DNA of 64,000 nucleotides from Warburgia ugandensis. Lineage: Eukaryota > Streptophyta > Magnoliopsida > Canellales > Canellaceae. Of this stretch, positions 9,174-58,780 are shown one piece after another (the stretch's first letter is position 1; each line of letters starts with the position of its first letter). A model generated the notes under the pieces. It did no database searches. It was not told the DNA's origin and worked only from the letters and a program-made list of their open reading frames with translations. The position numbers and the translations under genes were made by a program. The stretch lies in NCBI GenBank assembly GCA_035236585.1, contig CP141139.1, positions 16,322,990 to 16,386,989 of the forward strand, in the 5' to 3' direction.

Positions 9174-9238
<65 letters not shown>
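9174..9238. repeat. (CT)n microsatellite
   Basis: About 32 uninterrupted CT dinucleotides. Confidence 0.95.

Positions 9239-11309: not shown

Positions 11310-11398
<89 letters not shown>
11310..11398. repeat. (TC)n microsatellite
   Basis: About 44 TC dinucleotides without interruption, among the longest simple repeats in the window. Confidence 0.95.
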
Positions 11399-15475: not shown

Positions 15476-15482
15476 ATCTAAG

Positions 15483-15682
15483 TTAAGCGTTAAATTTTGG
15501 TCAAAGTACCCCTAATTTAGCATTCAATTAGATCATCTAACCTATCAAATTTGCAAATTGACAATTAGATGATTAATAGGATCTGAAATTAAAATCAAGC
15601 TAAAAATTGTAAATTTAATCGGTTAGGTGATGTAATTGGATGTTAAATTAGGGGTACTTTAACCAAAATTTAACAGTTAACA
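15483..15682. mobile_element. MITE with about 60 bp inverted repeats, hAT-like
   Basis: The left arm (15483-15541) and the reverse complement of the right arm (15620-15682) match over about 60 bases with few differences. Both carry TTAAATTTTGG, AAAGTACCCCTAATTTA and CACCTAACC or a near variant. The flanks carry a direct repeat, ATCTAAG, at 15476-15482 and 15683-15689. It extends to eight bases with one mismatch, the target-duplication length of hAT elements. The element is 200 bp and has no coding capacity, so it would depend on a transposase elsewhere. The arms and flanking repeat are read directly. The hAT assignment is inferred from the duplication length. Confidence 0.8.
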
Positions 15683-15689
15683 ATCTAAG

Positions 15690-18600
15690 AAAAATGAAAA
15701 GCTAGCATGTGTGGTAAGATGCTAGTTTAGCATTTAAAAATATCAAGATTCAGAACTCAACAAAATATGAGTGATTTGTTTTAGGTTAGCATGCTGTACT
15801 CTTTTGAGATTTGCTATCAAGACTAAGCTTCTCATGATTGAGTCTGCAATCCCTTATTCCAAACCATATCTTTGGATCTTTTGACCTGTTCATCTTCTTC
15901 ACCCTCCCTTGATAAGCTACCTATAAAAACTCATGTCCATTGATTGCTTCTAACAATGTTTTCTTTCTCTAGTTTTATAAGTAAAAAAGTTCAATGATCA
16001 TGATTAAAATACTTATTAATGAAAAAAACTATTAGCTAGAAGCACTAAAAAAACATAAGCTTTTGCCACTGGCCTAAATGGGAGAGGACAAAGAAGATGA
16101 ATGGGTCAGATTATCCATAGGTGAGGCCTAGATGGAGGGTTTGCTATATTATTGTGTGTGATCATTTTCTTTTGTTCTTTACTGCATCAATTTTACAACA
16201 GTTTGCCTCTAGAATGTGAAGGCTGACTAGAGCAAAACTTAAAATCTTCTAAAAAGAAATGGTATATAATGGATATAGTTGATTTCACATTTCTAAACAA
16301 AATCTTGTCTCGCTGTGGTCTGTCCAAGATTTTCATGGGCCTAAATATCATCTACGATTTCCCATCATCTCCCTTGGGGTGGTCACCAAGCTACTACTCA
16401 TGACTTTCCAGCCAGATCCATCAATCACTAACACTGTTACTCCAATTGGTAACATGTTCACATGTTACGTTGGACTTTATATCCATATCCATCAATTTGA
16501 CTTTGTTCACAGTGAATGACCCACGTACACGATCGATACAGAAGGGGAATAAAAAAGACATGTCTTGATCCAACAGGGTTCAAACTTCATTAGGAACACC
16601 TAATATCACTTACCATAGATATGAAGACTATGCTAATCAAGTCTCCTCCAATGACAAAAGTTTATGGTGAGGAACATTTTACGTGCAATTAAATTAAGGA
16701 ATCCTAAAACACCGTACCTTTTGTATGAAGGGGTCATCTTTGGATGATCTGACTTGTTTACTAGATTGCACAAGCTTTTGATATCTGATAAACAAATGAC
16801 ATGATGATTGGGTGACTCTAACATAGTAAAATCATGTTTTTGAGAGTTTGTGTAAAGTTTCTAACCACTCATTTCCTAGATAAAAAGTATATTTTTTCAG
16901 ATGCTAGAATAATCACACTCGATATGCTTTTTAAACTACTAAATATCCAACTCCAGATCGGAAAAGAATATCACATCATCCAAAGGTAGGGCTTATTTAT
17001 GCAGGTATTTCCACGGACAAAGACATATATTCTTAATCAAAGAACAGAATACTAGGATCTAAGTAATAGGTGACTGCTCAAGATGGGCAATGACACTTAC
17101 CCTGCTATGCTCAACTGTGTGCTACTCTGTCCCTTGAGTAATGCGCGATTGAATTCGTACTCACATCATGGTGCAAAGTGACCATATTTCATTAACTTAT
17201 GCTATTGATATGAACGTTGCATACGCATAGGATCGGGACGGATCAATGTTGGCAACCGAAGGACTTAGTACTACTTTTTAAGATAATTAAGCAAGCCTCA
17301 TGTCACTGACTTACATTGTTTGACATAGGTGGAATTGCTACCCCATGACACTCACCCCTTGAGTTCGTTTCGAACACTCGACAACACATGTAATTATATC
17401 TATATAATTTTGATCTCACAGATACCTGTTTCCACTTGGTCTCGTAACAGGTAATTCACGAAAAATTCGCTAGAGCTATTTTACTCTACTTGTGTGTCCA
17501 AGAGAGAGGTTATGGAATTAACATTTTGAAATGGGCATTGCTACGGAAAATTGGGTGTTTGATATGATGATTCTGCATTGATTAGGTAACAAAGTTTAAG
17601 TGCATGGGATTCCAAGTTCCATAACTTGAACACTGAGCTACGGTGATACACGTTCCACTGAAGATATCACCAAACGTGATTTTAGCCTAATTAAGGGGCC
17701 ATATGGGCACACGGGATTCCTAGTTGATTGTTTGGCTTTACTTAATGACTTCTGGCCAGCACAGTTATCCCATGCACCTAAGGCCACTAATTTTAAGAGA
17801 TAATCATTATTCGGCTAATTTTCCATGTACCTGGGTCCTTATTTAGGTGCTTCGAATTGGCAAAATGGGAGACTCTGGGGTCTTTCATGCCGGAAGTTCT
17901 TTTGGTTCTTGAATAGGTCTCCTAAAAAGGCAATCACAGGTAAAATAGACGTGATGGAGGTTGGAGTTCAAAGTGAATGTGTGTTGTTATGTCATCTCTG
18001 AAAATCCATTAATCATTCTGACAAGACATGATGTAGAGGATGCAATATTAGAATTTAAATAAAAAATATGAAAAAAGGAAGGCTTAGCAGACCGGCTTAT
18101 TCGTGGTCGTGGGTACTTAACCAGGCGAGCCTTAAAGAAAGAGAAAATGGATAGACTTGAATACTTAGTGGTCCATGCCTTCTAGAGATTTGGTTTTTGT
18201 ACCTTTGTTACCAGGTGCGAAGGAACTTATCAGAGTTGCATCCACCCACCCTGCAAAAACCAGGCCCTACTAATTCTTCATCTTAAGTCAATTGGTAAGT
18301 AACCAAAGTTTTAAGAAGGGAAAAGGGATTCAGTTACTCTAGAGGAAAAATTAACTATGCAACAACTTATTTATGGGAAAACAGTATATATCCTCGCACT
18401 TTGTATGCAAAAGGGAGAAGGCATATATCCATAATGGACAATTACTTTGTACACATCTATAGGCTGCCTGCATGATTTCAAGTGAGGCCAAGGCCCATGG
18501 GACTAGCGGCTTGTCTGAATACTTCCAGCATGGTTAATTGTCACTTTGCAGTGAAAAGATAAAATAAGCAAATACATAAGTGAACATGCTCAGATGTGCT

Positions 18601-29239: not shown

Positions 29240-29346
<107 letters not shown>

Positions 29347-35084: not shown

Positions 35085-37631
35085 TGCAATTTGGGAGCGA
35101 GAGTGAAAATTGAATTAACAAAATTGGAGTGAAGTACCACTAGAGAGTATATCAAAAAAACTTTCTTTAAAAATATTATTTACCCCACTCTCTCATATGT
35201 GAGGTTGCTTATGGGATCTCTGGCAAACCACTTTACAGATGCTACAAGCCTTCATGTGGGTTGTCATAAGAAACTTCCAAAAACACTAACTGAACATTAA
35301 AATAGATAGGCAGTGATATGATGCGAAGAAAATGAAGTGTTTATGAGAATAAAGCTCAACTAGAGAAGATGATAGTAAAAACTTTAGTTTTTGTATTGTA
35401 AACATTTAGATTCTAGACACATTTTGCTTTAAGAACCTTAGAAAGCCATCAAGAGTTGACTCTTACCAAGGGGTTGACTTTCTTAAAATTCTCTCTTTGA
35501 ACGTCAAATGCCATTCTATTTAAAGAAAGAAAATCATTGAGGTAGTTGACTCCCTTAAATAAGGAGCTGATTACCAGTCATAACACACTTTATGGGAGGA
35601 ATCAACTCCTCCAAGGGAGCCAATGCCTCTTTTACAAAGTCTTAAAAAATTTCTTTTCAAAACCATCTTATTTATGAAAATAATTTAACTAATTATTTTA
35701 TCAAATAATTTAATTAAAAATCCAATAATCCCCACTTAATTAAATATATTTAGTAACATTTTTCACTAAATATAATTAATTAATTTGGTAAGATCACTAT
35801 AGTATTATCATGCATAAATGAAGGTATATTTCAATTTCAAATCTCCACTTAGTGTTAGCATCTCAAAGTTTTATCAAATTTTGGGGTAGACTAAAACCTT
35901 CAAATCATGTAACCCATTTGCTAAAACCGTAGGCACCACGCACATAATAATACAGCCAAATAAGAAGTTTAGAATTTTTCTTAGCATTATAAATAGCCAT
36001 GTGTGAATCCTTGCTTCATGAGCAATCCCAAGAGAACTCTCATTTTCATGAAAGGCCGCCCACCTTGATGCTCATATAGGTAAAGTTTTTACAGTGCACC
36101 TGTTACTTTTATGTGCACTTGTCTAATACAATGGTGCTTCATTAAGATACAAAACCTTCACCTTATTATAGTAACCATCAACATTATTTCTTTTGTAGTG
36201 TAGATGCAACCATTTATCAATGACTCATTTTTACCACATTGAACTTGATTAAGTGTTTGAAATTTTCAAACAATAAGTTGGGTTTCCATCACGAGTGGTT
36301 GAAATAATTCAAGGGAATGTAAGTCGTGTCATTTCTCTTGTGAGAGACATTTAGCAAAAGGATTTGCTAAATTCTTGTAAGATTTGACATATGATATTAC
36401 AATAGTCCCTTGTATTAGACATCTAACATAATAAAATCTTAAACTAATTAATGTGTCTAGACTTGCCATTATACTTGCTTTGATCAGCTTTTCCTAATGT
36501 AGCTTGCCTATCACAATGTACTAATATATGTACGTGGCATTAGTTTACACCATATCAAAATATCCACTAAAAGATTTCTTAACCACTCAGCCTCTTTACC
36601 GGTTGTTGATAAAGTAGTGAACTCCAACTCCATTTGAATCCTAGGAGGCAGCTGTTCTTCGTAGGGTAAACATCCAACAAGTAGTTGATTTATTGTCACC
36701 TAGATTTGATATCTAATTAGTATTAGTAAAGCCTTCTAAGAACAATATTTCTTGGTTAATTTAAGATAACCAAGAACTCTCCTAATAGTCTTTTAGTATT
36801 CCATACTTGAATTGCTAGTAAACCTACCAAGTTTACATGCATTGAAGGCTATGTCAGGTCTCTATACTTGAATTGCTAGTAAACCTACCAAGTTTACATA
36901 CAACGAAGGCTATGTCAGGTCTAGTGTAATGCATTGCATACATCAAAATTCCAATAGCATTGGCATATTTTAGTTGTGCGACTGCTTTACTTCCAATTTC
37001 TCTATTTTAATGCATCGATTGTAGGGGGTGTAAAATTTTCATATTAAGATACTGAAATTTATTCAACACCTTTTCTACATAATGAGTTTGATCCAATAAG
37101 TAACCCCCAATATTTTTTTATGTACTTTGATACCCAATATGGTATCTACCTCCCTAAGATCCTTCATTTTGAAACTAGAAGATGGAAAAGAGTAATTTTT
37201 TAGTATATTGTATGCCATCAATGCTCAAATTAGTAATTAGCATATCATTCATATATAAATATACAATAATAACATAATCATGGTGAATCTTAGAATAAAT
37301 ACATTTATCTATATCATTTTGCTTTAACCATGTGTTAACATTAAGAGAATCAAATTTCTCATGCCATTTCCCAAGTACTTTATTTAAGTCATATGAAAAT
37401 TTAACTAATTTACATACCTTGTTTTCTTATCTAGCAAGGACAAAACCTTGAGGTTATTTTGTATAAACTTCTTCATCAAGATCACCATTTAGAAATGCAG
37501 CTTGTACATCATTTGACAATTATGAATTTAAAAAATTGATGCCAATGTGTGCAAACAATATTTTAATTGATCTAAGTCTAGCTATAGGTACATATGTACC
37601 AAAATAATGTATACCTTCTTTATGTCAAAAC
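35085..37631 (-). mobile_element. Ty1-copia fossil, 3' part (RT, RNase H, LTR)
   Basis: Read on the minus strand from 37631 leftwards, copia pol words appear in order. First come the start of RT (YFGTYVPIARLRSIK near 37600) and AAFLNGDLDEEVY near 37480. Next is the RNase H region with GKEAEWLRNLLVDI near 36590, then a tail resembling ENLADPLTK near 36370. Left of about 35740 the AT-rich, non-coding sequence preceded by AAGTGGGGATTATTGG looks like a polypurine tract followed by the 3' LTR. Its outer end, near 35085, is estimated. The element is broken, with many breaks, and is interrupted at 37631 by a gypsy LTR. Its remaining pol piece resumes at 40201. Confidence 0.75.
37627..37631. repeat. 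Target-site duplication AAAAC, left copy
   Basis: Five bases immediately left of the gypsy LTR. They recur at 40196-40200 immediately after it, and again at 47458-47462 after the second LTR, always at the same point of the copia pol sequence. Confidence 0.9.
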
Positions 37632-38428
37632 TATAACATTTTGATTTTTAAAAAACAAGAAAAATAAATAAATAATATAATGAAATAATATAATATAATA
37701 AAACAAAAAAATGAAATGAAATGAATAAATTATATAAGGTAAGGAGAAGAGAGAGAGTGCTCAAAATGCACTCTCCTCTCTCTCAAAGTCTCTCTGTTTC
37801 ACATGGACCAACACGCACCGTGGAGACGGATTTCTCCACCCTTGAATAGCCGAGAATAAGGTAGGATCACTCCACCCTTCCCTTTTGTGTTAATTTCAAC
37901 ATTTAATTACCTGTAAATGCCGAAAAAGGGCATGAAAACGTAGGTTTTTGCAAAAATCTGTGCGTACTGATTTGCCTAAAAAATTTGGATGAGACAATGT
38001 CAGATTTAGATCTGGACCGTTCATATTGTGTATGATGAGGAGAGGAAAGAACACACAAAATTTCTTGACAATCGGATGGCTAGGGAGGCAGAAAAACACA
38101 AAAAACAGTAATACAGGAGTTTTTGAAAACAAAACAAAAAGTGTGAAAAAATGCTAGATTTAGGAAGGATTCAAGAAAATGGATGGTGAAAATGGAATGT
38201 ACGTGAAAAACCGGACACAGGGGTGTAAAAATCACAAAAATCGGAGCACCTGGGGTCGCCGGGGACAGCGAACCACTCTGGTCGTTGTCTCCAGCGAACC
38301 AGTCCGTAACTGGCGGAAACACTTGGATGAGGGAGCGCCACGTGGCGCGATGAGGGCGTACCATGCGCAAGGGCAAGCCACGTGGAGAGGCTGGAAAGCG
38401 CCACGCGCTGTTCCGTACCCCACACGCA

Positions 38429-38565
38429 GAGCACTTCCACAGAAGCGCCTACTACCCAGAGCGGGTTCTAATGTAGAGCGCTTCCACAGAAGCGCCCATT
38501 GCGTCCATAGAAGCGCCCGCTCTCCTGGAGCAGGTTTTGACGCGAGGCGCTTCTACAGAAGTGCC
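38429..38565. repeat. Hairpin array in LTR1
   Basis: Copies of a perfect or near-perfect inverted repeat, GGCGCTTC-CACA-GAAGCGCC, lie at 38429-38449, 38477-38496 and 38546-38565. A half copy lies at 38502-38517. Spacing is about 50-70 bp within a GC-rich zone. The counterpart in LTR2 has two full copies. Confidence 0.85.
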
Positions 38566-39202
38566 CAGCATGCGCTGCTCATGAGGCGGGCCCCATTTGC
38601 TAGATTTTGGTCTTTTTTTATCCTTTTTGTCTTTAAACCTTGATTTTAGGAGCTATAGAGGTTTAAATCACGATCCGAAAGAGGTGTTGTGATTGTCTCA
38701 ACAAGGCGGACCTAGATTTAGGATAAAATTCTAGTTTGGAGTAACTTTTTAGTAGCGAAACTACGAAATGCTATTAGATGATTCAGATCGAGCTGATCAA
38801 TAGATAATCACGCTTTAGATTTTGGTTATATGTGTTAACCAGGATATGATTTATGGCATGACAGGTACATCAGGGCATACCCCTTGATATTGGATACGTG
38901 TTTGTTTGGGGATATTGCTATACTGAGGTAGGTAATTTCATTCACACTTTTTCTATGATTCTCAAATAGTGATTTGATGATTTGAGTCTTTGAGACATAT
39001 GATTTATGCCTTACCATATGTGTGAGATTGACTTCAGCATGTAGCTTTGCATGTGCGTGCTATCTTTATAGTGGATATTGCATGCACTGTTTTTGATATC
39101 TTTCGTGATATCTACTTGATTTTTGGTCTTCTTGACATGTGGGAGTTGCTCTGGCTTGATATTTGAGATTATTGATCCTGTGATATGATGCGATTTTCAC
39201 CC

Positions 39203-39385
39203 CGTGAGTGCCTGAGTGCCCGTGAGGGTGAAAGGGTGAAAGCGGGTGTGCAACGCGACTTTTCATGAGTGCCTGAAAGGGTGAAAGCGAAAGTGGCGCT
39301 CGTAGTTCTCGTGAGTGTCTGAGTGCTTGAGTACCCGTGAGGGTGCAAGGGTGAAAGGGTAAAAGCGGATGGTATAGAGAGCTGA
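39203..39385. repeat. Degenerate tandem repeat in LTR1 (GTGAGTGCC / GGGTGAAAG)
   Basis: Three units starting near 39203, 39264 and 39311 combine GTGAGTGCCTGA, CCGTGAGGG and repeated GGGTGAAAG words. The matching zone of LTR2 (46463-46613) differs in number and arrangement of sub-units, so it is a fast-changing part of the LTR. Confidence 0.8.
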
Positions 39386-40200
39386 CCCCACATTGCCGTG
39401 AGTGTATGTGAGACACTCATAGGGCTTGACTGTGTATGAGTTTTGATACTTTTGACATGCATTCATATGTTTCTAGATTTTCTTGGATTGTGCATGTCCT
39501 GATATCATGGTTGATGATATCGTATTTATTGCATGGACATGGTATGTCCTTCATCGTGTGATTTAAGACTTTATATATTATTGATCATTTTTTTATCTTT
39601 ATATCTTGCGCCATATACTTTGTTTTATTGAGTTATTTTGAATGTATATCACCTGCACAACCATGGCTTGCTGAGCCATTACTTTGTTTTGCAATGCCTC
39701 AGAATCAGAGCGCGATAGTCAGAAAGGAAAGAAGGTGGACTAGCGTGGAGTTGGACGGGGGCTTGAGGACAGAGTAGTGTACTTTTGGTTGGACTGGTAA
39801 TGACTTTTTGGCATTCTCTTTAGTCATTGTATATATTGATAGATTAGACTCATATCACTGTATAGTGGTTATATGTTTATTCATGGATGATGTGGTGATC
39901 TTGGACAGACCCTGGAGCTTTGGAACTTCACTATTACATGTCTTTACAGTTACAAAATTTCATCGTGGTTTTAATTTATGAGCATGCTCAAAATGGTTAC
40001 TTTTCGTCCTGTTTTTCAGTATGGTTTTGAGGAGAAGTGACCCTCGGGGTTTTCTTAAATGGTATTTGCTTGACGCTGCGACAAATTTTAAATTATGAGT
40101 TTTAAGTTCTGGAATCCCATCTATTTTCTATAAATAAATTATTACTATTTGAGTATAAATATGGGAAACAGGTTAATAAAACCCGGGGTGTCACAAAAAC

Positions 40201-40570
40201 TCTTCGCTATCAATCCAGCCTTAAATGCTTGCAATGAACCACTAGAATAAAATTTCTTTCTAAGAACCTACTTACAATCAATGGCTTGAGAACCAATGGT
40301 AAATCAATATGGACCTAGTTATGTTGGACATAATAGAATCTCATTTATCCTTAATAGCTTCTTCGCAAAATGCTACACTTATAAGACTTAGGATCATCTT
40401 AAGTATACAAAACAAAATGAATTTTTGTGATTACATTATTCCTATTTGTCTCAACTAGGAATGTAATGGATTGAGAGTCAATGAAATCCTGACCTAATTC
40501 CTTTTTTTATTTTCTTTCTAATCCTTATACTTGTAGAGCCATCAAATGAGAGTTTAACAAAATAATCGGA
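40201..40570 (-). mobile_element. Ty1-copia fossil, continuation upstream of the gypsy insertion
   Basis: On the minus strand, words from the segment just before copia RT appear (SQAIDCK then SSGSLQAFKAGLIAKSF, matching the KARLVAKGF region). Farther right come words resembling the linker before RT (FCEEAIKDK). This is the same element as 35085-37631, split by the gypsy insertion. Sequence beyond about 40570 is no longer recognisable as copia. An almost identical copy lies at 47463-47832. Confidence 0.7.
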
Positions 40571-42232
40571 GGGGGTTTCCAACGGATCAGAATTTCTTTC
40601 AGTCTCTATTTAACCAAGAACTAATGTCCGCAACTAGTAAGGATTGAAAATTGGCTATCCTGAAAAAGTGATCAGTCCTTATATGAGTTTCCAGACTCCA
40701 TGCCCTAGATATCCAATTCATTTTGACACGTTATCTGTCCACTGATCCTGCTGAAGGACAAGTCTTTTTCTCGTATTCCAAATTTGCCAAGCAAGAAAAG
40801 CGTGCTACCGGTAAAAGGATAGATATGCAATGTCTATTAGATCCTTTTCATAGCAAGCAATGCAGGGCATCAGCAATGGAATTAAATTGATATTCCTGTA
40901 ACCTGAATGAGTCCGTCATGAGCGACCAACCAAAGAAATATCTTGACCTGAGGGAGGCATTGCATTTTTCCAAATCTGCTTCCATTATTCCTGTTAATCT
41001 CATGTGTATTTTGGAAAGAAGATAGTAACAAGATTTAGTGAACTTCCCCATCTATGAAGGCCCTGGACCATTTCATCCTTGAATCTGCCAGATAATTTTA
41101 CCATTTTAATCTACTTCTGGACTTTATGATCAAACAAAGTAGGGAAGAGCAGATCCTACAGTACAAGGAGCCGCATCAAATGCCATCCTGACCATTGCAT
41201 CTTTATTGAAGCTAGTCGGGAATGATGTCGATTTCAGTTTGTTGATTAGAGAGAGGGCCAGCTCATTGATCTTTCCTAAGCTTTGTCTTTCCTCCATTAA
41301 CAAAGCTGATTCTGTGGGGTTGCTAGAGAGGAAGGAAGGTCGTCCCAATCTAACCAACTCCACCCAATACACTCGGCTCTACGCCTGCGTATCAGCATAG
41401 GATATCACCATCCTGAAATGGATACCCGTGTTCAAGAGATCACGAAAAATGATGCCTTCTTAAGCTAATCCTTAGCCTTATCGCCTTCTGTTGGCCGTCT
41501 TAAAACATAGAATACATTTTCTGAAGATGAACAATCCCATCCATTTACCAAAAGAAGAAAAAAAATCCCATCCCAAATTTCCTTTTAAAGTAAACTATAA
41601 TGATATCCTAATTGCCATTGGAAAGGAAGAAAATCACCTGTTGATACCTAATCTTTCCCAAACATTGCCTGAACTTTGCAAGCATTAGACTCGTCAGATT
41701 ATTCCCTGAACCCCAACTTTGCAACTATGCTCTCAATGGAAAAAAATGAAGATCCTAATGGTTGTCGGTATGAGCTGTATTAAGAAACCGGGCTTACTCT
41801 TTAAGCGAAGCCCATTGATTGCTGAGCAGTGATTGTTACACATCCAGACAAAAAAGGTAGAGGATAAAGCAACCTTTTCTCATTATGCAATATCCCACGT
41901 TCACCAACGAAAAGGCCACTTGTATTTACCCCACCTCGGCTTCGAGGAATATAGCTTTCTTTCTCCTCTATACAGCACACGTGAACATCCTTTTCATGGA
42001 CCAGCCAAGCCTTGTAACCTTTGGAATCCCTCCCTGTTTAATTATAGGTGAAAGTCACAGTAAATATCAAAATCAAGCAGATGACTTTAGCCACAGAACG
42101 TGGCCAATTTGTTCACTCTTTCTTTACGAAGCCGTCTTTAATTTCAACACCAAACGGTTTTCTCTTCCTTCGACGATTTAAAGCAGACAAGCAGCTCTTG
42201 AACATCACAAAGAAAGCAGAAGATAGCTAGCC
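40571..42232. other. Duplicated upstream region of the truncated oxidase copy
   Basis: This segment is about 99.4% identical to 47833-49494. On the minus strand near 40770-40810 it contains AFLAWQIWNTRKRLVL, resembling the W.IW..RN..VF motif near the C-terminus of plant LINE ORF2, so part of it is probably a LINE relic. Other small open frames (41372-41130 and 41051-40848 on the minus strand) are conserved between the copies only because the whole block is duplicated. A G-box, CACGTG, lies at 41978-41983. Confidence 0.6.
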
Positions 42233-42934
42233 ATGAAGTTACTGGTCATCTTTACATTAGCAACCTTCTCCTCTTTGTTAGTAGCCCGCGGTGAACATTA
42301 CAAAGGTGCATGGAAATTGTTGCGGGGAAGTGTAGGCGTCTCTGCCATGCATATGGCTTTGTTGCCAAATGACAAGATCATAGCCTTTGATCGGACCACT
42401 TTCGGCACTTCTAATATCTCTTTACCTGATGGGAAGTGTCTACATAGCTCCCAGAATGGAGTCCCAGCAGTCGATTGCACAGCACATTCGATTGAATTTG
42501 ATCCGGGAAACCGTAATGTGCGTCCGCTTACTGTACTAACCGATACTTGGTGCTCCTCTGGTGCACTATCACCGGAGGGCAACTTACTTCAGAGTGGTGG
42601 GGACAAGGATGGTGAGCGTGTAGTCCGATTCTTCACTCCGTGCCACGGCTGCGATTGGGTTGAAAGTAAGAATGGATTGACTATGAGAAGATGGTATGCT
42701 TCAAATCAGATCTTACCAAATGGCAAAATCATAGTTGTCGGCGGTCGAGATCAGTTCAACTACGAATTCATTCCTAAAACCTCAATAGCAGATGGTCGAG
42801 CTTTTGTGCTCCCATTTCTCAGAGAAACAGGGGATGCTGATGAGAACAATTTGTACCCTTTTCTCCATCTCGCACCCGACGAGAATCTCTTCATTTGGAG
42901 GCAGTTTTGTGTTGGGAGAGGCCTACGACGGTGA
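42233..42934 (+). pseudogene. Truncated glyoxal oxidase-like gene copy fused to gypsy pol
   Basis: The first 221 codons match the intact gene at 49495 with two visible amino-acid differences (Gly for Asp at residue 139, Gly for Arg at residue 200). The homology ends at 42896. From 42897 the sequence is gypsy pol, and the frame continues for only 12 residues before stopping. The fragment keeps the signal peptide (residues 1-20), Cys107 and Tyr155, the pair that forms the thioether cofactor. It lacks the segment with the Tyr-His pair and the last copper-binding His, and the C-terminal DUF1929 domain, so it cannot be a working oxidase. The whole upstream region is duplicated with it, so it may still be transcribed. 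Either a real rearrangement or a join of two haplotypes in the assembly could have made it. Confidence 0.9.
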
Positions 42935-44974
42935 CAGAGGTTCATAGTTTCCTCAGTTTAGCTGGTTACTATCGGCGATTCATTGAGGGGTTCTCGAAGA
43001 TTGCCTTGCCCATGACCACTTGGACTAGGAAGGACACCAGGTTCGTTTGGACTGACGCTTGTGAGGAGAGCTTCAGGAGCTCAAGCGGGGGTTGACTACT
43101 GCACCAATACTTGTCCTACCTTCAGGATCAGGTGGTTATGTGGCGTTTTGTGATGCATCAGGCAGAGGTCTAGGAGCGGTGCTGATGCAGCATGGGAAGG
43201 TCATTGCTTATGCGTCGAGACAGTTGAAGACGCACAAGGTGAATTATCAGAGACAGTTGGCCGCAGTGGTGTTTGCGTTGAAGTCCTGGAGACACTATTT
43301 ATATGGCGAGAGTTTTGAGGTATACACTGACCACAAGAGCCTTAAGTATTTGTTCACTCAGAGCGATCTGAACATGAGGCAGAGGAGATGGATGGAGTAC
43401 ATCAAGGACTCCGACTTTACGATACAGTACCACACGGGGAAAGCTAACGTCGTAACTGATGCCATGAGTAGGAAATCGAGAGTTATGATTGCTATCCTCT
43501 CGACTCGATCCAGGTTTCTTGATAGGATCCTTCAGGCACAAGTGAGCGATGCTGAGACGTAGAACATGGCCAATAAGGTCGACTTTTCTAGAGGGCTTGA
43601 TGGAGGTGTCCGGTATAGGGGCAGATTGGTAGTACCTGCAGATGATCAGTTGAGACATGACTTGCTATAGGAGGCATACCAGTCCCCATATTCTATTCAT
43701 CCAGGAGGTACAAAGATGTACCAGGACCTTAGATGACACTTTTGGTGGAATGGGATGAAGAGGGATATTGGTGAGTGCGTAGCACGATGCTTAACCTGTC
43801 AGCAGGTCAAGGCGGAGCATCAGTGACCAGCTGGGTTATTGCAAACTTTAGATCTTCCAGAGTGGAAGTGGGATCACCTCACTATGGATTTTATAGTGGG
43901 TTTGTCGAGGACGGCCAGTGGGCACGGCGTGATATGGGTTATAGTTGACAGATTGACAAAGTCAGCCCATTTCCTCCCTATTAGGCAAACTTAGACTGTG
44001 GACAACTTGGCGAAGCTGTACGTCAAGGAGATCGTGAGCCTTCATGGAGTACCATTGACGATTATCTTAGATCGAGACATACGATTTACCTCAAAGTACT
44101 GGCAGAGTGTATAGGAGGATTTGGGGTCGAGATTGAGATTCAGTACAGCTTTCTACCCCAGACAGATGGCCAGACTGAGAGGACTATCTAGACCATGGAG
44201 GATATGTTGAGGGCTTGTGTCCTGGATTGGAGAGATAGTTAGGATGAGCATTTGCCACTCGTGGAGTTTGCGTATAATAATAGCTATCATGCGAGCATTG
44301 GCATGCGCCTTATGAGACACTGTATGGCAGACCATATAGGTCTCCTTTGTGCTGGAGTGACGTAGGAAAGAGACGGATCATGAAGTCAGAGTTGATTGAG
44401 GAGTGTGCAGAAAAAGTCCGACTCATTCGAAAACGATTACTTGCAGCTCACAGCCGTCAGAAGAGCTATGCGGATAGGAGACGGAAAGACTTGGAGTTTG
44501 AAGTTGGACAGCATCTATTTTTGAGAGTTTCCCCTATGAAGGGCGTGATGAGATTTGGTGTAAAGGAGAAACTCAGTCCCAGATACATTGGTCCTTTTGA
44601 GATCTTGCGCAAAGTCGGACCAGTCGCATACCAGTTAGCCCTACCCCCACAGCTAGCTGGAGTACATGACATTTTTCATATCTTTATGCTGAGGAAGTAC
44701 ATATCAGACCCATGCCACGTGCTAGAGTAGATACCACCGGAGGTACGACCTGACTTGACATTCGAGGAGCGCCCTATACAGATCTTGGATAGCAAGATCC
44801 AGGAGTTGAGGACTAAGACCATTCCCCTGGTCAAAGTCCTCTGGCAGCATCACTTGACACAGGAGGCTACTTGGGAGTTGGAGGATGAGATGAGGCATAC
44901 CCATCCAGAGCTCTTCTTATGAGGTATGCATATTTTAAATTTCAAGGACGAAATTTTCTATAAGGTGGGTAGGA
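42897..44974 (+). mobile_element. Ty3-gypsy Tekay-type pol fragment (RT end to chromodomain)
   Basis: Parts in order: the last part of RT (WERPTTVTEVHSF and [16 protein letters not shown], 42900-43080), RNase H ([19 protein letters not shown] and [13 protein letters not shown], 43130-43480), the integrase zinc region (CLTCQQVKAEHQ near 43800), the integrase core (43850-44300), and a C-terminal chromodomain-like segment (IPLVKVLWQHHLTQEATWEL, near 44820-44880). A purine-rich tract adjoins the LTR that starts at 44975. The chromodomain and pol order place it in the chromovirus Tekay/Del group. It is broken, with several breaks and no gag, protease or 5' RT. Its left edge is the junction with the truncated oxidase copy. 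Confidence 0.88.
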
Positions 44975-47457
44975 TGTAACATTTTGATTTTTAAAATACA
45001 AGAAAAATAAAGAAATAAAGAAATAATATAATATAATATAATATAATAAAACAAAAAATGAAATGAAATGAATAAATTATATAAGGTAAGGAGAAGAGAG
45101 AGAGTGCTCAAAATGCACTCTCCTCTCTCTCTAAGTCTCTCTGTTTCACATGGACCAACACGCACCGTGAAGACGGATTTCTCCACCCTTGAATAGCCGA
45201 GAATGAGGTAGGATCACTCCACCCTTCCCTTTTGTGTTAATTTCAACGTTTAATTACCTGTAAATGCCGAAAAAGGGCATGAAAACGTAGGTTTTTGCAA
45301 AAATCTGTGCGTACTGATTTGCCAAAAAAATTTGGATGAGACAGTGTCAGATTTAGATCTGGACCGTTCATATTGTGTATGATGAGGAGAGGAAAGAACA
45401 CACAAAATATCGTGACGATCGGACGGCTAGGGAGGCCGAAAAACACAAAAAATAGTAATACAAGAGTTTTTGAAAATGAAACAAAAAGCGTAAAAAAACA
45501 CTAGATTTAGGAAGGATTCGGGAAAATGAATGGTGAAAATGGAATGTACGTGAAAAACTGGACACATGGGTGTAAAAATCACAAAAAACGGAGCACCTGG
45601 GGTCGTCGGCAACGGCGAACTAGTTCAGTCATTATCTCTGGCGACGGCGACCGTAACTGGCGGAAACACTTGGATGAGGGAGCACCACGCGCAGGGGCAC
45701 GTGGTGCGATGAGGGCGGGCCACGTGGAGAGGCTGGAACGCGCCATGCGCTGTTCCGTCCCCTACACGCAGAGCGCTTCCACAGAAGCGCCCGCTCCCCT
45801 GGAGCAGGTTCTGACGCGAGGCGCTTCCACAGAAGCGCCCAGTACGCGCTGCGCGTGCGGCGGGCCCCATTTGCTTGATTTTGGTCTTTTTTTTTACCCT
45901 TTTTGCCTTTAAACCTTGATTTTAGGAGCTACAGAGGTCCAAATCACAATCCGAAAGAGGCATTGTGATCGTCTCGACAAGGCGGACCTAGATTTAGGAT
46001 AAAAATCTAATTTGGAGTAAATTTTTAGTAGCGAAACTACGAAATGCTATTAGATAATTCAGATCAAGCTAATCAATAGATGATTAGGCTTTAGATTTTG
46101 GTTATATGTGTTAACCATGATATGATTTATGGCATGACAGGTACATCAGGGCATACCCCTTGATATTGGATAGGATATTGCTATACTGAGGTTGGTGATT
46201 TCATTCACACTTTTTCTATGATTCTCAAATAGTGATTTGATGATTTGAGTCTTTGAGACATATGATTTATGCCTTACCATATGTGTGAGATTGACTTTAG
46301 CATGTAGCTTCGCATGTGTGTGCTATCTTTATGGTGGATATTGCATGCACTGTTTTTGATATCTTTTGTGATATCCACTTGATTTTTGTTCTTGACATGT
46401 GGGAGTCGCTCTAGCTTGATATTTGAGACTATTGATCTTGTGATATGATGCAATTTTCACCCCGTGAGTGCCTGAGTGCCCGTGAGGGTGAAAGGGTGAA
46501 AGCGGGTGTGCAACGCGACTTTTCGTGAGTGCCTAAAAGGGTGAAAGGGTGAAAGCGAAAGTGGTGCGCGTAGTTCCCGTGAGTGCCTGAGTACCCGTGA
46601 GGGTGAAAGCGGATGGTACAAAGAGCTGACCCCACATTGTTGTGAGTGTATGTGAGACACTCATAGGGCTTGACTGTGTATGAGTTTTGATACTTTTGAC
46701 ATGCATTCATATGTTTCTAGATTTTCTCGGATTGTGCATGTCCTGATATCATGGTTGATGATATCGTATTTATTGCATGGACATGGTATGTCCTTCATCG
46801 TGTGATTTAAGACTTTATATATTATTAATCATCTTTTGATCTTTATGTCTTGTGCCATATGCTTTGTTTTATTGAGTTATTTTGAATGTATATCACCTGC
46901 ACAACCATGGCTTGCTGAGCCATTACTTTGTTTTGCAATGCCTCAGAATCAGAGCATGACAGTCAGAAAGGAAAGAAGGTGGACTAGCGTGGAGTTGGAC
47001 ATGGGCTTGAGGACAGAGTGTCAGATACTGACAGAGTGGTGTACTTTTGGTTGGACTGGTAATGACTTTTAGGCATTCTCCTTAGTCATTGTATATATCG
47101 ATAGATTAGACCCATATCACTGTATAGTGGTTATATGTTTATTCATGGATGATGTGGTGATCTTGGACAGACCCTGGAGCTTTGGAACTTCACTATTACA
47201 TGTCTTTACAGTTACAAAATTTCATCGTGGTTTTAATTTGTGAGCATGCTCAAAATGGTTACTTTTCGTCCTGTTTTTCAGTATGGTTTTGAGGAGAAGT
47301 GACCCTCGGGGTTTTCTTAAATGGTATTTGCTTGACGCTGCGACAAATTTTAAATTATGAGTTTTAAGTTCTGGAATCCCATCTATTTTCTATAAATAAA
47401 TTATTACTATTTGAGTATAAATATGGGAAACAGGTTGATAAAACCCGGGGTGTCACA
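44975..47457 (+). mobile_element. 3' LTR of the Tekay/Del-type element (LTR2)
   Basis: A 2483 bp LTR starting TGTAACATTTTG and ending GGGGTGTCACA, directly after the pol fragment and followed by AAAAC and copia sequence. It is the true 3' LTR of the element whose pol precedes it. Assuming rates used for plants (about 1.3e-8 per site per year for grasses, several-fold lower for trees), the roughly 5% difference from LTR1 over the left 2.2 kb suggests insertion some 2 to 10 million years ago. Its right end lies 2.04 kb upstream of the intact oxidase gene. Confidence 0.9.
45772..45839. repeat. Hairpin array in LTR2
   Basis: Two copies of the GCGCTTCCACAGAAGCGC inverted repeat, at 45772-45791 and 45820-45839, 48 bp apart. 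They correspond to the array in LTR1, which has one extra full and one half copy. Confidence 0.85.
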
Positions 47458-47462
47458 AAAAC

Positions 47463-47832
47463 TCTTCGCTATCAATCCAGCCTTAAATGCTTGCAATGAA
47501 CCACTAGAATAAAATTTCTTTCTAAGAACCTACTTACAATCAATGGCTTGAGAACCAATGGTAAATCAATATGGACCTAGTTATGTTGGACATAATAGAA
47601 TCTCATTTATCCTTAATAGCTTCTTCGCAAAATGCTACACTTATAAGACTTAGGATCATCTTAAGTATACAAAACAAAATGAATTTTTGTGATTACATTA
47701 TTCCTATTTGTCTCAACTAGGAATGTAATGGATTGAGAGTCAATGAAATCCTGACCTAATTCCTTTTTTTATTTTCTTTCTAATCCTTATACTTGTAGAG
47801 CCATCAAATGAGAGTTTAACAAAATAATTGGA
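47463..47832 (-). mobile_element. Second copy of the Ty1-copia fragment
   Basis: Duplicate of 40201-40570, offset by 7262 bp, with almost no differences. It is preceded by the same AAAAC after the gypsy LTR. Confidence 0.75.
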
Positions 47833-49494
47833 GGGGGTTTCCAACGGATCAGAATTTCTTTCAGTCTCTATTTAACCAAGAACTAATGTCCGCAACTAGT
47901 AAGGATTGAAAATTGGATATCCTGAAAAAGTGATCAGTCCTTATATGAGTTTCCAGACTCCATGCCCTAGATATCCAATTCATTTTGACACGTTATCTGT
48001 CCACTGATCCTGCTGAAGGACAAGTCTTTTTCTCGTATTCCAAATTTGCCAAGCAAGAAAAGCGTGCTACCGGTAAAAGGATAGATATGCAATGTCTATT
48101 AGATCCTTTTCATAGCAAGCAATGCAGGGCATCAGCAATGGAATTAAATTGATATTCCTGTAACCTGAATGAGTCCGTCATGAGCGACCAACCAAAGAAA
48201 TATCTTGACCTGAGGGAGGCATTGCATTTTTCCAAATCTGCTTCCATTATTCCTGTTAATCTCATGTGTATTTTGGAAAGAAGATAGTAACAAGATTTAG
48301 TGAACTTCCCCATCTATGAAGGCCCTGGACCATTTCATCCTTGAATCTGCCAGATAATTTTACCATTTTAATCTACTTCTGGACTTTATGATCAAACAAA
48401 GTAGGGAAGAGCAGATCCTACAGTACAAGGAGCCGCATCAAATGCCTTCCTGACCATTGCATCTTTATTGAAGCTAGTCGGGAATGATGTCGATTTCAGT
48501 TTGTTGATTAGAGAGAGGGCCAGCTCATTGATCTTTCCTAAGCTTTGTCTTTCCTCCATTAACAAAGATGATTCTGTGGGGTTGCTAGAGAGGAAGGAAG
48601 GTCGTCCCAATCTAACCAACTCCACCCAATCCACTTGGCTCTACGCCTGCGTATCAGCATAGGATATCACCATCCTGAAATGGATACCCGTGTTCAAGAG
48701 ATCACGAAAAATGATGCCTTATTAAGCTAATCCTGAGCCTTATCGCCTTCTGTTGGCCGTCTTAAAACATAGAATACATTTTCTGAAGATGAACAATCCC
48801 ATCCATTTACCAAAAGAAGAAAAAAAATCCCATCCCAAATTTCCTTTTAAAGTAAACTATAATGATATCCTAATTGCCATTGGAAAGGAAGAAAATCACC
48901 TGTTGATACCTAATCTTTCCCAAACATTGCCTGAACTTTGCAAGCATTAGACTCGTCAGATTATTCCCTGAACCCCAACTTTGCAACTATGCTCTCAATG
49001 GAAAAAAATGAAGATCCTAATGGTTGTCGGTATGAGCTGTATTAAGAAACCGGACTTACTCTTTAAGCGAAGCCCATTGATTGCTGAGCAGTGATTGTTA
49101 CACATCCAGACAAAAAAGGTAAAGGATAAAGCAACCTTTTCTCATTATGCAATATCCCACGTTCACCAACGAAAAGGCCACTTGTATTTACCCCACGTCG
49201 GCTTCGAGGAATATAGCTTTCTTTCTCCTCTATACAGCACACGTGAACATCCTTTTCATGGACCAGCCAAGCCTTGTAACCTTTGGAATCCCTCCCTGTT
49301 TAATTATAGGTGAAAGTCACAGTAAATATCAAAATCAAGCAGATGACTTTAGCCACAGAACGTGGCCAATTTGTTCACTCTTTCTTTACGAAGCCGTCTT
49401 TAATTTCAACACCAAACGGTTTTCTCTTCCTTCGACGATTTAAAGCAGACAAGCAGCTCTTGAACATCACAAAGAAAGCAGAAGATAGTTAGCC
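47833..49494 (+). promoter_or_regulatory. Upstream region and likely promoter of the oxidase gene
   Basis: Within the last 260 bases before the start codon lie a G-box, CACGTG (49240-49245), a second ACGTGG core at about 49360 and a CCAAT box (49366-49370). No strong TATA box is seen at a fixed distance from the start. TTTAATTATAGG (about 49297) is the best candidate. Further left is the same LINE-like relic as at 40.8 kb. The gypsy 3' LTR ends at 47457 in the same orientation as the gene, so it could contribute enhancer or read-through transcription. This is inference only. Confidence 0.45.
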
Positions 49495-51114
49495 ATGAAG
49501 TTACTGGTCATCTTTACATTAGCAACCTTCTCCTCTTTGTTAGTAGCCCGCGGTGAACATTACAAAGGTGCATGGAAATTGTTGCGGGGAAGTGTAGGCG
49601 TCTCTGCCATGCATATGGCTTTGTTGCCAAATGACAAGATCATAGCCTTTGATCGGACCACTTTCGGCACTTCTAATATCTCTTTACCTGATGGGAAGTG
49701 TCTACATAGCTCCCAGAATGGAGTCCCAGCAGTCGATTGCACAGCACATTCGATTGAATTTGATCCGGGAAACCGTAATGTGCGTCCGCTTACTGTACTA
49801 ACCGATACTTGGTGCTCCTCCGGTGCACTATCACCGGAGGGCAACTTACTTCAGAGTGGTGGGGACAAGGATGGTGAGCGTGTAGTCCGATTCTTCACTC
49901 CGTGCCACGACTGCGATTGGGTTGAAAGTAAGAATGGATTGACTATGAGAAGATGGTATGCTTCAAATCAGATCTTACCAAATGGCAAAATCATAGTTGT
50001 CGGCGGTCGAGATCAGTTCAACTACGAATTCATTCCTAAAACCTCAATAGCAGATGGTCGAGCTTTTGTGCTCCCATTTCTCAGAGAAACAAGGGATGCT
50101 GATGAGAACAATTTGTACCCTTTTCTCCATCTCGCACCGGACGAGAATCTCTTCATTTTTGCTAACAATCGAGCAATCTTACTTGACTATGTGAACAATC
50201 GAGTCATGAGGAATTATCCCGTAATGCCAGGCGGGGAATCCCGGAACTATCCTAGCGCCGGTTCATCGGTACTTCTTCCAATTATAGTAGAAAACCAGAA
50301 CGTACAAGCTGAAGTCATGATCTGTGGAGGGGCACCCCCCAATTCGTATGCAATGGCCAACAACGGGACTTTCTTGCCGGCATCGAAAAGCTGTGGACGG
50401 TTAATGATCACTGATGAATCGCCGAATTGGGTGATGGAGGAAATGCCAATGAATCGTGTTATGGGAGATATGATTCTTCTTCCGACCGGTGATGTCCTTA
50501 TTATAAACGGGGCAGCAAAGGGGTCTTGCGGGTGGGACGCAGGAAGAGAACCAGTTATGAACCCGGTTCTTTATCGAACTGGAATTACAGGTGGTATAAG
50601 CCGGCATTTTGAGGTATTGAAACCGTCAACGATTCCACGTATGTATCATTCAACAGCGCATCTCATTCCGGATGGCCGTATTTTGGTTGGAGGTAGCAAT
50701 CCGCACGAGAAATATGAATTCTCAGGCGTACTTTTCCCGACGGATTTGAGTCTGGAGGCCTTTTGGCCTCCTTATTTAAAACCTGGCTCAGATCGTCCAA
50801 CAATTACTTCTATAAAGCCCGATTTAGATATCTTGTACAATCAGCGGTTTTCAGTAGGTTTTAAGACAAAGATGAACATAAGAAAAGGAGTGCACGTAAC
50901 GATGGTGGCACCTTCCTTTACAACGCACTCATTTTCTATGAACCAAAGATTGCTGGTTTTGAAGCTCGGCGGGCTGCGTCAGGTTTCCCGCGGGGCGTAT
51001 GAAGTTGAAGGGTTTGCACCGACAACGGCTGCTTTGGCCCCACCTGGATATTACCTCTTATTCGTGGTGCATGATGGGGTCCCCAGTAGAGGGAAATGGG
51101 TGCATATTAATTAG
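49495..51114 (+). CDS. Aldehyde (glyoxal) oxidase-like copper-radical oxidase
   Basis: Encodes 539 residues in one exon, the usual size for plant glyoxal oxidase-like proteins. These secreted enzymes oxidise aldehydes (or galactose-type alcohols) to acids and release hydrogen peroxide in the apoplast and cell wall. Residues 1-20 form a signal peptide (MKLLVIFTLATFSSLLVARG). The glyoxal oxidase N-terminal beta-propeller domain covers about 40-290 and a DUF1929 C-terminal domain about 430-537. All family active-site positions are visible: Cys107 (TDTWCSSG) and Tyr155 (RRWYAS) for the thioether cofactor, Tyr384-His385 (PRMYHSTAHL) and His478 (TTHSFSMNQR) for copper. Kelch-like GG turns recur (VVGGRDQ, ILVGGSNPH). 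The start is the first ATG of the frame and gives the signal peptide. A stop TAG at 51112-51114 follows VHIN. The substrate cannot be told from sequence. The nearest neighbours are all transposon relics. Confidence 0.95.
   Translation: MKLLVIFTLATFSSLLVARGEHYKGAWKLLRGSVGVSAMHMALLPNDKIIAFDRTTFGTSNISLPDGKCLHSSQNGVPAVDCTAHSIEFDPGNRNVRPLTVLTDTWCSSGALSPEGNLLQSGGDKDGERVVRFFTPCHDCDWVESKNGLTMRRWYASNQILPNGKIIVVGGRDQFNYEFIPKTSIADGRAFVLPFLRETRDADENNLYPFLHLAPDENLFIFANNRAILLDYVNNRVMRNYPVMPGGESRNYPSAGSSVLLPIIVENQNVQAEVMICGGAPPNSYAMANNGTFLPASKSCGRLMITDESPNWVMEEMPMNRVMGDMILLPTGDVLIINGAAKGSCGWDAGREPVMNPVLYRTGITGGISRHFEVLKPSTIPRMYHSTAHLIPDGRILVGGSNPHEKYEFSGVLFPTDLSLEAFWPPYLKPGSDRPTITSIKPDLDILYNQRFSVGFKTKMNIRKGVHVTMVAPSFTTHSFSMNQRLLVLKLGGLRQVSRGAYEVEGFAPTTAALAPPGYYLLFVVHDGVPSRGKWVHIN

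Positions 51115-58703: not shown

Positions 58704-58780
<77 letters not shown>
58690..58780. repeat. Compound microsatellite (TA)n-(TG)n-(GA)n
   Basis: The solo LTR is followed at once by a short TA run, a TG/CG run to about 58712 and about 34 GA dinucleotides. Together with the (AT)8 run left of the LTR this was one compound microsatellite before the insertion, with the same unit order as the one at 29240-29342. Confidence 0.9.

Follow-up and report, generated by a model that had tools for sequence, protein, structure and literature searches.

Partial duplication of an oxidase gene beside the LTRs of a retrotransposon in Warburgia ugandensis, a possible scar of one-sided break repair

A stretch of 64,000 nucleotides of Warburgia ugandensis DNA (hereafter the window; contig C14, 16322990–16386989, of a 1.12 Gb genome of 14 contigs that was searched for related sequences) contains a complete oxidase gene downstream of a retrotransposon and a shortened version of the same gene joined to the pol sequence of that element, which raises the question of how part of a host gene came to stand where the 5' half of a retrotransposon should be. 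Nucleotides 47458–50158 are repeated as 40196–42896 at a constant offset of 7262, with 16 mismatches over 2701 bp and zero indels, and similarity between the two copies stops directly after 42896. The original prediction had recognized this repeat unit and its offset, counting about 17 mismatches, and its intact right-hand arrangement of LTR2, AAAAC, flank and complete oxidase was likewise supported. Chance similarity was ruled out, as the 2.7-kb match stands at 99.4% and further matches to oxidase DNA in the genome reach only 63–67%. Apart from the two window copies, five other matches to the oxidase DNA (63–67% identity) and 15 short matches to the oxidase upstream region (66–79%) were observed and, as all of these are distant, there is no third copy of the left half of the duplicated unit. 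The duplicated flank (40196–42232, forward strand) consists of copia remnant and oxidase upstream region and shows 12 differences over 2037 bp from the original flank of the same composition (47458–49494, forward strand), whilst the coding part of the unit shows four differences over 664 bp. Across 13 informative differences an A/T skew in the right copy (10 versus 3) was not significant (P 0.09). The duplication is a genuine feature of the assembly and is explained well by known repair routes. Among other repeats in the window are simple-repeat tracts at 9174–9237, 11311–11398, 29287–29343 and 58714–58780, which match one another and lie two in each orientation, an inverted repeat of approximately 200 bp at 15482–15681 (self-match 77%), perhaps a small hairpin-like element, and a tandemly duplicated 62-bp unit at 36800–36922 (94% identity).

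The complete glyoxal/galactose-oxidase-like gene (49495–51114, forward strand) is a single exon with an uninterrupted, intron-free frame of 539 aa, and its translation matched both Glyoxal_oxid_N (4.2e-112) and the galactose-oxidase-like E-set domain (2.8e-28), with galactose-oxidase chains as the relatives of known structure. The truncated copy (42233–42934, forward strand) comprises 221 codons plus one base, followed by 12 out-of-frame codons in pol and a stop, and covers positions 1–186 of the 243 in Glyoxal_oxid_N. Residues Tyr384, His385 and His478, aligned with the copper site of galactose oxidase, lie beyond codon 221, and the left copy lacks that part of the site. The earlier statement that this copy loses the catalytic C-terminal half is roughly correct with regard to Tyr384-His385 and His478, but Cys107 and Tyr155 are kept; the catalytic or copper-binding roles of all five residues are presumed here. 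Two of the four coding differences of the left copy change amino acids (D139G and R200G). Arg200 of the right copy is common to the two relatives shown and Asp139 to one, position 139 being variable among relatives, and compared with these genome relatives both changes may be derived. The left copy is truncated and probably dead rather than an active oxidase.

One Gypsy-type insertion accounts for both LTR1 (37632–40195, 2564 bp) and LTR2, the 3' LTR (44975–47457, forward strand, 2483 bp). The pentanucleotide AAAAC, which has a frequency of 0.002 within the window, is present on the forward strand as the left target-site duplication inside an older copia remnant (37627–37631), as a copy of the right target-site duplication (40196–40200) and as the right target-site duplication in its original place (47458–47462), and the sequence left of LTR2 is a purine-rich tract without AAAAC. 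The single insertion with a target duplication flanking LTR1 that had been proposed was supported by the first two of these sites. Flanks joined at AAAAC aligned unbroken in 14 of 14 matches outside the window (72–81% identity), indicating that the insertion site was copia remnant. LTR1 resembles a solo LTR in being a single LTR between identical target duplications with a continuous empty site elsewhere, but internal sequence and a sister LTR follow at 42897–47457. The leftover 3' part of the internal region (42897–44974, forward strand), 2.08 kb up to LTR2, contains an RNase H domain at 43065–43562 (RT_RNaseH, 4.4e-28) and ends with the purine-rich tract directly before LTR2; together with the 5-bp target duplication these features are as expected of a Gypsy-type element, a label that we take over from the original prediction and from general features of the group, RNase H alone having been matched here. 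LTR1 starts with TATAAC and LTR2 with TGTAAC (LTR1 positions 37632–37643), the 5' terminal TG of the element having mutated.

Relationships of the two LTRs were analyzed against the 28 loci (L011–L038) closest to LTR2, a sample that is not random and of which five are 3' LTRs. The left part of LTR1 differed from LTR2 in 134 of 2087 columns, whereas the 28 other loci were at least 7.2% different from LTR2. Two loci that were misaligned (L013, 32% different, and L015, 38%) were excluded from the tree and from mutability scaling, and in the resulting tree of 28 rows the left part of LTR1 was sister to LTR2 with support of 100/100. The 5'/3' pairs of two other elements (L020/L029 and L023/L028) were also sisters, at 100/99 each. 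An independent insertion of LTR1 was rejected, as target site and duplication are the same and LTR1 and LTR2 are sisters. The neighbouring pair L022/L027 (G000:C1:53949541 and 53956819), similarly sisters at 100/99, lie 7278 bp apart with an internal 3' region upstream of both, which suggests an LTR-internal-LTR-internal-LTR array arising from unequal recombination. Solo state was examined in 20 of the 23 non-3' LTRs, the set excluding L013, L015 and L038: 14 were solo LTRs with a matching target duplication (nine at 5/5 and five at 4/5), three were followed by element leader and three were unreadable. The copies nearest LTR2 are very often solo LTRs.

Comparison of LTR1 with LTR2 along its length revealed parts of two ages. 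The left part (37632–39850, forward strand) is the original 5' LTR, with 147 substitutions over 2105 aligned columns and 10 indels relative to LTR2 (K2P 0.0741), and the right end (39851–40195, forward strand) is a recent copy of the end of the 3' LTR, with two differences over 345 bp. The best changepoint was at 39850 (lnL gain 86) with a 2-lnL support interval of 39837–39880 that is uncorrected for local mutability, the true switch possibly lying rightward as far as 40195; its position is placed anywhere within 39837–40195. The young stretch (39851–42896) carries 18 substitutions over 3046 positions (K2P 0.0059) and is alike in its LTR end (0.0058), flank (0.0059) and coding part (0.0061). 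Transversions alone numbered 8 of 3046 in the young part versus 36 of 2105 in the old part, giving a ratio of ages of about 6.5, compared with about 12.6 by K2P. The LTR end is better conserved across the element family than the remaining LTR. When scaled for mutability, the two differences over the final 345 bp of LTR1 compared with 6.8 expected from eight loci chosen for similarity at the LTR end (P 0.034) and with 11.1 expected from ten loci not so chosen (P 0.0012), and this deficit supports a switch ahead of the LTR end. Divergence is uneven within the left part, the ratio of LTR1-LTR2 to family divergence spanning 0.33–0.96 among its bins. The near-identical stretch had been reported to start at 40196; the changepoint and the mutability-scaled comparison place its start inside LTR1, at approximately 39850, and the two-age structure of LTR1 was overlooked in the original prediction. 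LTR1 as a plain copy of LTR2 was rejected, given the old divergence and 10 indels of its left part. At a substitution rate of 1.3e-8 per site and year, which may not fit this plant, the insertion would be approximately 2.8 million years old and the duplication approximately 0.23 million. According to the consulted portion of PMC7251063, 25% of LTR pairs may have undergone gene conversion, which calls for caution in LTR dating and in the two-age argument.

At the other end of the young stretch the oxidase sequence passes into pol at a putative non-homologous junction (42896/42897), known from the assembly alone, that has a 1-bp (T) overlap and zero filler. The pol sequence is uninterrupted across the equivalent point in six of six other element copies. 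In two other elements, the only two in which distances to the LTRs were determined, this point lies approximately 2.09 kb before the 3' LTR, a distance that the 2.08 kb of the pol remnant matches, and 4.9–5.0 kb past the start of the 5' LTR, indicating that the element here has lost approximately 2.45 kb of its internal 5' sequence and that 2.70 kb of flank and gene, close to it in length, is present instead. The start of the young stretch inside LTR1 and the 1-bp-overlap junction indicate that the duplication has one homologous end, in the LTR, for which the two-age LTR1 is the main evidence, and one non-homologous end at 42896/42897. As in one-sided invasion, the copied tract starts on the left within homologous sequence and was joined on the right without homology. 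One insertion site, old and young parts, and homology at the left end but not at the right are established features of the locus, and the old/young pattern points to DNA-break repair or a close equivalent, of which this would be a clear but ordinary scar.

The reading that we favour, with a probability of roughly 0.42, is invasion of the 3' LTR by one broken end followed by end joining, in one event. A Gypsy-type retrotransposon would have inserted into an old copia remnant approximately 2 kb upstream of the oxidase gene and, much later, have suffered a double-strand break in its 5' half, be it in the 5' LTR, the leader, gag or the early part of pol. Of the two broken ends, the left one, lying in the 5' LTR, may then have invaded the matching 3' LTR on the sister chromatid or the homologue. 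Its extension would have run through the end of the LTR, AAAAC and the copia remnant, past the region upstream of the oxidase and 664 bp into the coding sequence, before it let go and was end-joined to the other, chewed-back end in pol. Such an event would account in one stroke for the two ages within LTR1, for the extra copy of flank and half gene and for the missing 5' half of the element, although we infer both the single event and the break as its trigger. One-sided invasion repair of plant double-strand breaks was reportedly described by Puchta in 1998. It is economy, in that one event suffices, that favours one-sided invasion over other routes; the sequence itself appears to fit equally well with this route, with tandem duplication plus LTR recombination and with exchange between solo and full states. 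Counting against one-sided invasion are the imprecise position of the switch and a junction known from the assembly alone, and neither an intermediate state nor another allele was encountered. In a further proposal of about equal probability, the locus may be a natural, dated case of one-sided-invasion repair with the LTRs of the element itself as homology, in which a 5' half with approximately 2.45 kb of internal sequence, as judged from two other elements, was swapped for approximately 2.7 kb of 3' flank that includes half of a host gene. It may then exemplify a general route for partial duplication of LTR-adjacent genes.

Nearly as likely as one-sided invasion is a route in two steps on one chromosome, in which a 7262-bp unit (pol 42897 to oxidase 50158) was tandemly duplicated by end joining and the 5' LTR then recombined with the first 3' LTR copy, removing the 5' half of the element and leaving a solo-like LTR1. 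It reproduces the order exactly, along with the two ages of LTR1 and the target duplications, and its second step is cheap given the abundance of solo LTRs in the family (14 of 20 examined), but it needs two events, both in the last tenth or so of the life of the element (K2P 0.0059 versus 0.074), and no three-LTR intermediate was seen in the one genome searched. The original prediction had named this route as well as an illegitimate exchange in which one chromosome had a solo LTR and the other the full element, and both do yield the observed order. The exchange is possible, both states being plausible with solos common in the family, but is not needed and appears unlikely: a solo allele must already have existed and homologues must have exchanged DNA at non-homologous sites, the sequence makes no demand for two parental alleles, and the derived-looking D139G and R200G would fit a copy that decayed once made rather than a pair of functional alleles, a point weakened by the variability of position 139. 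Nor does the left half have to come from a solo-LTR chromosome, as had been claimed, since one repair event on a full-element chromosome yields the identical product.

A misjoin by the assembler of a solo-LTR haplotype contig to a full-element haplotype contig is less probable again. The divergence of 0.59% is within the range of heterozygosity that outcrossing plants can reach, but neither the window nor 253439 bases of loci contain any N, and the join, having only a 1-bp overlap, provides no homology for an assembler to follow. The order of LTR end, flank, gene, pol and LTR also looks like that of a chimeric element, as would be produced if an RNA reading through the 3' LTR into the oxidase had switched onto element RNA during reverse transcription. 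This was rejected as very improbable: the left end still sits at the original target beside its own AAAAC, hence without a new site of insertion, LTR1 has the old 5' LTR as its left part, and a 9-base motif resembling a primer-binding site was found once on the forward strand of the window, at 18228, and not after LTR1.

The locus illustrates a way in which a break, through the paired LTRs of a single element, can lead to partial copying of the gene next to it. It also illustrates that an old/young switch in divergence inside an LTR can distinguish the boundary set by homology from the one made by end joining. Should the one-event reading be true, LTR elements beside genes would be recurrent sites of partial gene copying, although a single case leaves the general view unchanged. 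A literature search by title and start of abstract, which does not prove absence in print, found no published description of such an arrangement.

Several known systems nevertheless share features with the locus. Like members of the plant glyoxal oxidase/galactose-oxidase-like family, the complete copy has Glyoxal_oxid_N and the E-set domain, whereas the left copy ends after 186 of 243 positions of the N-terminal model. Solo LTRs formed by recombination within an element carry identical target duplications according to the consulted part of PMC2686159, which also describes a chimeric maize gene produced by end joining. LTR1 likewise lies between identical target duplications and joins 5' LTR to 3' LTR sequence, but an ordinary solo LTR, of the kind that PMC2686159 and PMC7251063 describe, is without internal sequence or a second copy of the flank, whereas here pol, LTR2, flank and gene follow. 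In barley, 12.7% of insertions/deletions contain non-homologous stretches that the consulted text of PMC3706897 attributes to synthesis-dependent repair. In repair-mediated proximal duplication, seen in the vertebrate set that the available part of PMC2671141 describes, nearby DNA is similarly copied into a break with a short-overlap or blunt join, but those human tracts reach at most 619 bp, whereas the tract here spans approximately 3.05 kb and has hundreds of bases of homology on one side. By that standard some 3 kb is long for a stretch of repair filler, which counts against the one-sided invasion reading. The closest likeness is with plant double-strand breaks repaired with homology at one end only and end joining at the other, as described in the portions consulted of PMC9369344 and PMC5895730. 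The cases known from those portions are of experimental or engineered breaks, whereas the event at this locus would be natural and old, would have taken place between the LTRs of one element, and is a single event that we infer from its product.
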